Shown piece after piece: positions 2,370-3,710 of a DNA stretch of 64,000 nt. Position numbers and translations under genes: made by a program. The notes under the pieces are model-generated. The model saw only the letters and a program-made list of their open reading frames with translations, was not told the DNA's origin and made no database searches. Position 1 is the stretch's first letter. Every line of letters starts with the position of its first letter. Origin of the DNA: Bacillota bacterium (GTDB taxonomy: Bacteria; Bacillota; Clostridia; Ch29); the NCBI GenBank assembly GCA_013540605.1, contig JABVCK010000001.1, positions 62,001 through 126,000 on the forward strand, read 5' to 3'.

Positions 2370-2429
2370 CCTTTATTTGTATATAATAATAGTATAAAAT
2401 TAGGCTAAAACTAGCTGGAGGTGCCATTC

Positions 2430-2621
2430 TTGTATAATAAGGATACCATAATCAAGGACGTACTTAAAGAACACCCCGAGGCGGAAGAGGTCTTTAAGAA
2501 AAACGGAATCGCGTGCTTTGGCTGAGGAGGAGCTCTATATAAGAGCATTGAGCGGGCTGCTCAAATGTATGGTGTTGAAGAAAAGGCCATTATAGACGAG
2601 TTGAACAGGAAATATGCATAA
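2430..2621 (+). CDS. DUF1858-type redox-disulfide protein with in-frame TGA: probable selenoprotein
   Basis: Read through the TGA at 2523-2525, this frame gives 63 residues matching the DUF1858 (hybrid-cluster-protein-associated redox disulfide) family along its whole length: an N-terminal K-D-x-x-x-x-V-L-K-E-H-P-E segment, then G-I-A-C-F-G-x-G-G-A, then a C-terminal helix ending in D-E-L-N-R. The family normally has C-x-x-C here; the TGA sits exactly at the second Cys, giving C-F-G-U. The TTG start follows a CTGGAGGTG site. Coding continues in frame for 31 codons to TAA, and a terminator follows immediately. A SECIS-like hairpin lies downstream of the TGA. The alternative is a nonsense mutation or base error; reading TGA as stop would leave a 31-residue fragment ending inside the motif. 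Confidence 0.78.
2546..2567 (+). promoter_or_regulatory. SECIS-like hairpin downstream of the in-frame TGA
   Basis: The stem TTGAGC/GCTCAA (2548-2553 and 2559-2564) closes a five-base loop GGGCT, and two more pairs form below it past a bulged A. The loop starts 28 bases after the TGA. Bacterial SECIS elements are described as a short stem-loop inside the coding region with the apical loop roughly 16-37 bases after the UGA and a G among the first loop bases; the E. coli fdhF loop, GGUCU, is similar. The fit is by eye. Confidence 0.65.
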
Positions 2622-2662: not shown

Positions 2663-2965
2663 CTATTTTAGTTTGTTTTCAACCGAAGCGATTTTCCCTT
2701 CCATTGTACCGACTTTATCCCTGCGGTCATCGATTCTGATAAGGGTGGATACCCTCATAGCCCCTTGTCTAAAAGGCACCTCATGCATTTTTCTGATTGT
2801 AGCTATAATCAGGTCCAGTTCGCCTTCAATCACCGTTCCCATGGGGGTCAATTGATATTTCAGGCCTTTTTCTTCTTCCAGCACCCTATGGCACCCTGCC
2901 ACGTATTTGCTCAGGCTGGTGGAACCGGTGCCAAAGGGGGCAATGGTTACCTCAACTATTGCCAT
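2663..2965 (-). CDS. MTH1187/YkoF-type thiamine-binding family protein
   Basis: A 100-residue protein of the MTH1187 family (formerly DUF77), related to the YkoF thiamine-binding fold. It shows the typical start A-I-V-E-V-T-I-A-P-x-G-T-G-S-T-S-L-S, a central Y-x-L-T-P-M-G-T-V-I-E-G segment and a V-P-F-x-x-G-A-x-R-V-S-T-L-I-R-I-D-D-R end. The start chosen has an AAGGAGG site seven bases upstream; an eight-residue longer reading begins before that site. Members are small ferredoxin-fold proteins thought to bind thiamine or related molecules; the function here is not established. It stands alone and faces the probable selenoprotein. Confidence 0.85.
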   Translation of the reverse strand: MAIVEVTIAPFGTGSTSLSKYVAGCHRVLEEEKGLKYQLTPMGTVIEGELDLIIATIRKMHEVPFRQGAMRVSTLIRIDDRRDKVGTMEGKIASVENKLK

Positions 2966-3039
2966 AAAACCGCCTCCTTTCTTAACCATTATACCATTTT
3001 TACCTATAAATTAGAAACCTCATATGCTATGAGGGAAAG

Positions 3040-3131: not shown

Positions 3132-3710
3132 ATGGAAAACAAAAAAGTACCCGTTGGCCTGTCCAACAGGCATTTACACCTGAGCAAAGAACACGTTGAT
3201 AAGTTGTTCGGCAAAGGTCATGAGCTGACTGAATTCAAAGCGTTGTCTCAACCCGGCCAGTATGCCTGTGAGGAGAAGGTAGACCTGGTAGGGCCAAAGG
3301 GAACGATAAAAGGGGTAAGGGTTTTGGGACCGGTAAGGAAGGAAACACAGATCGAGATATCGATCGCGGATGGTTACAGCCTTGGGATCAGACCTCCGGT
3401 TAGGGATTCCGGTGATTTAGAGGGAACACCGGGTGTAAAAATCATAGGACCCGAGGGAGAAGTAGACCTTGAACAGGGGGTCATAGCAGCAGCGCGCCAT
3501 ATACATATGCATCCCGGGGATGCAGAAAGATTTGGCGTCAAGGATTTCCAGCGGGTAAAGGTGAGAAAGGACGGGGACCGTGGTACGGTTTATGAGAATG
3601 TATTGATCCGGGTATCACCCAGCTATGCTTTGGAACTCCACCTGGATGTGGAAGAAGGAAATGCAGCAAGCATCAGTAATGGTGATTTGCTTGAGATGAT
3701 TACCGACTGA
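3132..3710 (+). CDS. pduL: Phosphate propanoyltransferase PduL
   Basis: PduL-type phosphotransacylase of 192 residues, which converts acyl-CoA plus phosphate to acyl phosphate plus CoA (acetyl or propionyl). Two copies of the PduL beta-barrel are visible. The zinc-ligand motifs N-R-H-L-H-L-S (near residue 17) and A-R-H-I-H-M (near residue 125) are intact. The N-terminus lacks the extension that targets PduL to microcompartments, and no shell genes are nearby, so a cytosolic housekeeping role, for instance with an acetate kinase elsewhere, is more likely. The ATG follows GGGAGG. Confidence 0.93.
   Translation: MENKKVPVGLSNRHLHLSKEHVDKLFGKGHELTEFKALSQPGQYACEEKVDLVGPKGTIKGVRVLGPVRKETQIEISIADGYSLGIRPPVRDSGDLEGTPGVKIIGPEGEVDLEQGVIAAARHIHMHPGDAERFGVKDFQRVKVRKDGDRGTVYENVLIRVSPSYALELHLDVEEGNAASISNGDLLEMITD

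Follow-up and report, generated by a model that had tools for sequence, protein, structure and literature searches.

The window, i.e., the whole 64,000-nucleotide stretch of Bacillota bacterium DNA that was analyzed, contains a very small gene of the DUF1858 family interrupted by an in-frame TGA codon, which raises the question of whether this codon ends translation or is decoded as selenocysteine (Sec). The initial annotation called the gene a likely selenoprotein. This reading is supported by the presence of selenocysteine machinery in the genome, a conserved TGA, a covarying SECIS-like hairpin, the contrast between Sec and Cys copies in genome G534 and the use of TGA as a stop elsewhere. 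We infer that the gene is almost certainly that of a real selenoprotein, with UGA decoded as Sec. The features of the locus are listed in Table 1.

Table 1. Features of the selenoprotein locus (positions within the window)
Feature	Position	Strand	Remarks
Shine-Dalgarno-like GGAGGTG	2417..2423	+	6-nt gap to the TTG start; read in the sequence
Selenoprotein gene, DUF1858/TIGR03980	2430..2621	+	63 aa, U at residue 32; TTG start, TAA stop (2619-2621)
Redox motif C-F-G-U	2514..2525	+	Cys29 = TGC 2514-2516; Sec32 = TGA 2523-2525
SECIS-like hairpin (bacterial)	2548..2564	+	6-bp stem TTGAGC/GCTCAA, arms 2548-2553 and 2559-2564; loop GGGCT 2554-2558
Stem-loop with flanking A/T runs, across the stop codon	2616..2648	.	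terminator-like; pattern scan scored the minus strand only

The TGA is the sole interruption of the frame. The proposals that it occupies the place of the family's second redox Cys and that the frame stays open for 31 codons beyond it were both borne out: a Cys paralogue encoded in the same genome (at C29:119447) reads GMHCLGCPASS where the window protein reads GIACFGU, and the frame is intact in 22/22 genes. Relatives likewise carry a GGAGGT-like sequence upstream of the start. The stem-loop spanning the stop codon may be terminator-like for both the selenoprotein gene and the gene converging on it (2663-2989, minus strand), which codes for an MTH1187-family thiamine-binding protein.

When the read-through product, with TGA taken as Cys, was searched against curated profiles, it scored above the cut-offs of both PF08984 (DUF1858; 46.8 bits vs. 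32.2) and TIGR03980 (57.8 bits vs. 44.95, whole-length match), which confirms the family originally proposed. Alignments A1 and A3 show no variation at residues C29 and G31 or at the TGA position, and the CxxC signature of the family, with Cys or Sec at its second position, is present as C29-F-G-U32.

The gene, with TGA at the same codon, is kept in 6/6 sampled genomes of the window's GTDB family, and the same TGA is found in 22 genes from three families. Since these 22 genes come from separately assembled genomes, a base-call error at one site is excluded in practice; the source of the window is a draft assembly (36 contigs; genome of 3.35 Mb, 99.55% complete), but with relatives independently showing the same TGA, plus the hairpin, the chance that TGA is a sequencing or assembly error for TGC or TGT, a correction named at the outset as fatal to the selenoprotein reading, is negligible. 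In the 22 loci read, the motif is C-F-G-U-G-G in 21 and C-Y-G-U-G-G in one. Across 391 genomes sampled from the class, each of the 24 top profile matches has one in-frame TGA; the next match, at 67 bits, is a Cys form, and from there downward Cys forms predominate. A phylum sample contained a second group, C-[VLI]-G-U-G-G. At the site in question, relatives thus have either TGA or, in Cys forms, Cys; close relatives devoid of both, which had also been named as an argument against Sec, were not what we found.

Were the TGA an ordinary stop, the locus would hold a decayed DUF1858 copy or a gene for a 31-residue peptide, and a mechanical list of open reading frames of 50 aa or more indeed has no entry there. 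However, 22 genes keep the TGA and the next 31 codons, the frame being intact in each and the substitutions following a coding-type pattern. Column identity at the three codon positions is 80/88/60% after the TGA vs. 78/89/51% before it; it follows from this similarity that the downstream part is translated. As with sequencing error, the relatives rule out a pseudogene in practice, and we consider termination at this codon very improbable.

Other collections were also searched. No relative was found in viral contigs, and matches in the plasmid collection were Cys forms. The sole match in the contig collection, Geobacter L078, was rejected as spurious, as no DUF1858 frame surrounds it. A second TGA-containing DUF1858 type, in which additional residues precede the motif (DRIGCGUGG and SNVSCGUGG), occurs at loci L038 and L041; the CFGU form is present in the same genomes as well. 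At L042, a classical-looking DUF1858 gene with TGA (GMGCVGUPSAQ), apparently a separate Cys/Sec exchange, lies between a gene for the RIC iron-cluster-repair protein and a hemerythrin-like-looking gene.

The initial annotation called for a check of selA, selB, selC and selD. Family searches detected selA (E 3e-184), selB (7e-113), selD (5e-117) and a tRNA-Sec with a UCA anticodon in the window's own genome, clustered within ca. 6.2 kb of contig C11. An in-frame TGA also occurs in selD (SSGUAAKVG), a feature shared with the genes of many known SelD proteins. Among the relatives, G004 carries the TGA gene along with selA and selB, and its draft assembly of ca. 190 contigs contains no selD over the cut-off and no high-scoring tRNA-Sec; we tentatively ascribe this to an assembly gap. 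Three genomes of the same class chosen for absence of a DUF1858 match (G008, G041 and G042) also lack selA, an observation that describes three genomes and is not a test.

A further possibility is that, through a changed genetic code or a suppressor tRNA, TGA specifies an amino acid other than Sec (Trp, Cys or Gly), since the frame would be open whatever sense meaning TGA has. Yet TGA terminates full-length genes here: it is the stop codon of PduL in the window (3708-3710) and, in G001 and G072, of the same selenoprotein gene, so TGA is not simply reassigned. The presence of tRNA-Sec and SelA/B/D in the genome, the Cys found at the site in homologues and the SECIS-like hairpin that accompanies the TGA also speak against such a meaning, which we regard as highly unlikely. 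Selenocysteine remains the preferred meaning of the codon, and SelB and tRNA-Sec would decode it.

The hairpin that presumably directs this decoding begins closer to the TGA than the initial annotation suggested: the 28 nt given there is the distance to the GGGCT loop, while the stem starts at 22 nt; the hairpin itself is real. The published bSECIS model (PMC13188914) describes an apical loop of 3-9 nt located 16-37 nt past the UGA, an upper stem of 4-16 bp and a G in the first two loop positions. With a 5-nt loop (GGGCU) at 28 nt, a 6-bp stem and G as the first loop base, the window hairpin agrees with this description on all four counts. Its predicted stability is modest: the isolated hairpin has a minimum free energy of -7.0 kcal/mol, slightly above the maximum of -7.5 in the bSECIS model, and the 48-nt stretch that begins with the UGA has one of -13.3 (z -1.5), below that maximum. 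An Rfam search at the locus returned sub-threshold noise only, without a match to any bacterial SECIS family.

In the alignment of 22 genes, 88.6% of stem cells are paired and two-sided changes occur at four pairs, giving a covariation score of 0.302 vs. 0.091 in shuffles and no more than 0.06 in slid controls; this alignment scores L091, whose hairpin is shifted (GCATC-GGC-GATGC), only in part. In a broader set of 24 genes, the stem is 95.8% paired, and pair 27-41 is U-A, A-U or C-G. Because the stem falls in coding sequence, each gene was also recoded synonymously 1000 times using local codon usage. About 1 in 1000 recodings (ca. 0.1%) equaled the window hairpin. For 19/22 genes the native hairpin was equaled by about 5% of recodings or fewer, and for L086, L089 and L097, each of which has one stem mismatch, by 7.5-14%; since the genes are related, these values are not independent.

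Genome G534 provides a natural control, as it contains one TGA copy and two Cys copies aligned at the Sec site. As can be seen from their sequences, the stem is TTGAGC/GCTCAA in the TGA copy vs. TCGAGC/GCTAAA, with two mismatches, in both Cys copies, a difference that a role of the stem in Sec insertion would predict. As both Cys copies have the same sequence at this place, the contrast is counted as a single event, probably one in evolution. TGA/Cys homologue pairs are formed by the G534 paralogues and by the window gene with the Cys paralogue of its own genome.

The product would be a helical DUF1858 protein of 63 residues with a C-F-G-U redox pair. Its AlphaFold model is a small helical fold (pLDDT 95) in which Sec32 opens the third helix and Cys29 lies in the preceding loop; the best solved match is 2k53, from a clostridial relative (TM 0.87). 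Of the C-x-x-U thiol-redox protein proposed initially, the motif is observed directly, and the redox role is one that we infer: the protein is probably a small selenol/thiol redox carrier. It would most likely cycle between a reduced form and a Cys-Sec selenenylsulfide, acting as a carrier or reductase that is reduced by a flavoprotein and passes electrons on to a partner. A flavoprotein-reduced carrier is favored because reductase-like flavoprotein genes adjoin in family f21 and in G072. In most f21 loci, a thioredoxin-reductase-like flavoprotein gene ends just upstream of the DUF1858 gene; its product has the CATC active site but neither of the two NAD(P)H motifs, GxGxxA and HRRxxxR, which are both present in the TrxB of the window's genome. 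Clostridial reductases without these motifs are probably ferredoxin-dependent (PMC10880999). Genome G072 has a CoA-disulfide-reductase-like gene whose start is approximately at the end of the DUF1858 gene. No redox partner gene adjoins the selenoprotein gene in the window's own genome, nor is a flavoprotein gene adjacent to it in the window's own family, and for this reason the partner step is put forward conditionally.

The selenoprotein could instead bind a metal or iron center or have a regulatory role. The read-through product reaches 28 bits, under the cut-off, with ScdA_N, a related domain that occurs in di-iron cluster-repair proteins, and a TGA-containing DUF1858 gene of G025 adjoins a di-iron cluster-repair gene. 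Against this, many redox selenoproteins have the same CxxU spacing, and in two families the gene has flavoprotein disulfide-reductase-like neighbors, so that a role other than that of a carrier is possible but rather unlikely. For the redox carrier, a more specific and more doubtful proposal is that the C-[FY]-G-U-G-G subgroup forms a DUF1858 branch committed to selenium and serving as a dedicated small carrier for a clostridial ferredoxin-type flavin thioredoxin reductase. No Cys member of this subgroup was seen in the sampled genomes, and we found no description in the literature of a redox pair of a small Sec-DUF1858 carrier and such a reductase.

Gene neighborhoods differ among the families. 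The macro-domain gene noted initially does lie upstream of the selenoprotein gene (1887-2369), but it has this position only in the window's genome and in G001, i.e., in 2/6 family members; its place directly upstream is taken by a cell-wall hydrolase gene in G002-G005. The neighbor is therefore of little functional meaning and was rejected as a partner. At f21 loci L039, L040, L087, L088, L090, L093-L096 and L098-L100, the Sec-DUF1858 gene is flanked by the gene of the motif-less flavoprotein and by a SCIFF peptide maturase-like gene (TIGR03974; the L087 copy scores 685.9 bits). Two families have a gene for a PduL-type phosphotransacylase no more than ca. 2 kb downstream from the Sec-DUF1858 gene (window 3132-3710; L034-L037, L039, L040 and L097), and this shared neighbor suggests an old common locus.

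Standard annotation tends to drop a TGA-containing DUF1858 gene, and a conserved redox protein is consequently overlooked throughout a clostridial family. In the set gathered here, a series of covarying SECIS elements comes with natural Cys controls, and the neighborhoods in related families point to redox partners that can be tested for this domain, whose function is unknown.

Whether a Sec form had been described before was left open by the initial annotation; it had been. A DUF1858 selenoprotein family with CxxU (representative WP_012065717.1) is catalogued in two reviews (PMC9312934, PMC13188914), which cite surveys of 2008 and 2016. The window protein shares with it PF08984 and Sec at the second CxxC position, a likeness that concerns domain and motif. 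In the literature searched, no description of the function of a DUF1858 selenoprotein was found. What may be new is the apparent Sec commitment of the C-[FY]-G-U-G-G subgroup and its putative flavoprotein link. The Cys form of TIGR03980 (hybrid cluster protein-associated redox disulfide domain) corresponds to the window protein over the whole length, the latter having Sec for the second Cys; after the motif, the window protein continues with GGALY, whereas PSxxxE, PGATGE or MAARFE stands there in most of the Cys forms read. Two solved structures, PDB 2k53 (A3DK08, Clostridium thermocellum) and 2k5e (GSU1278), have the same fold and belong to the same sequence family; they are 31-35% identical to the window protein and were deposited as uncharacterized proteins, in non-selenoprotein form. 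Since the two reviews already catalogue DUF1858 CxxU selenoproteins, the window gene is a well-supported addition to this known group and not a new type.
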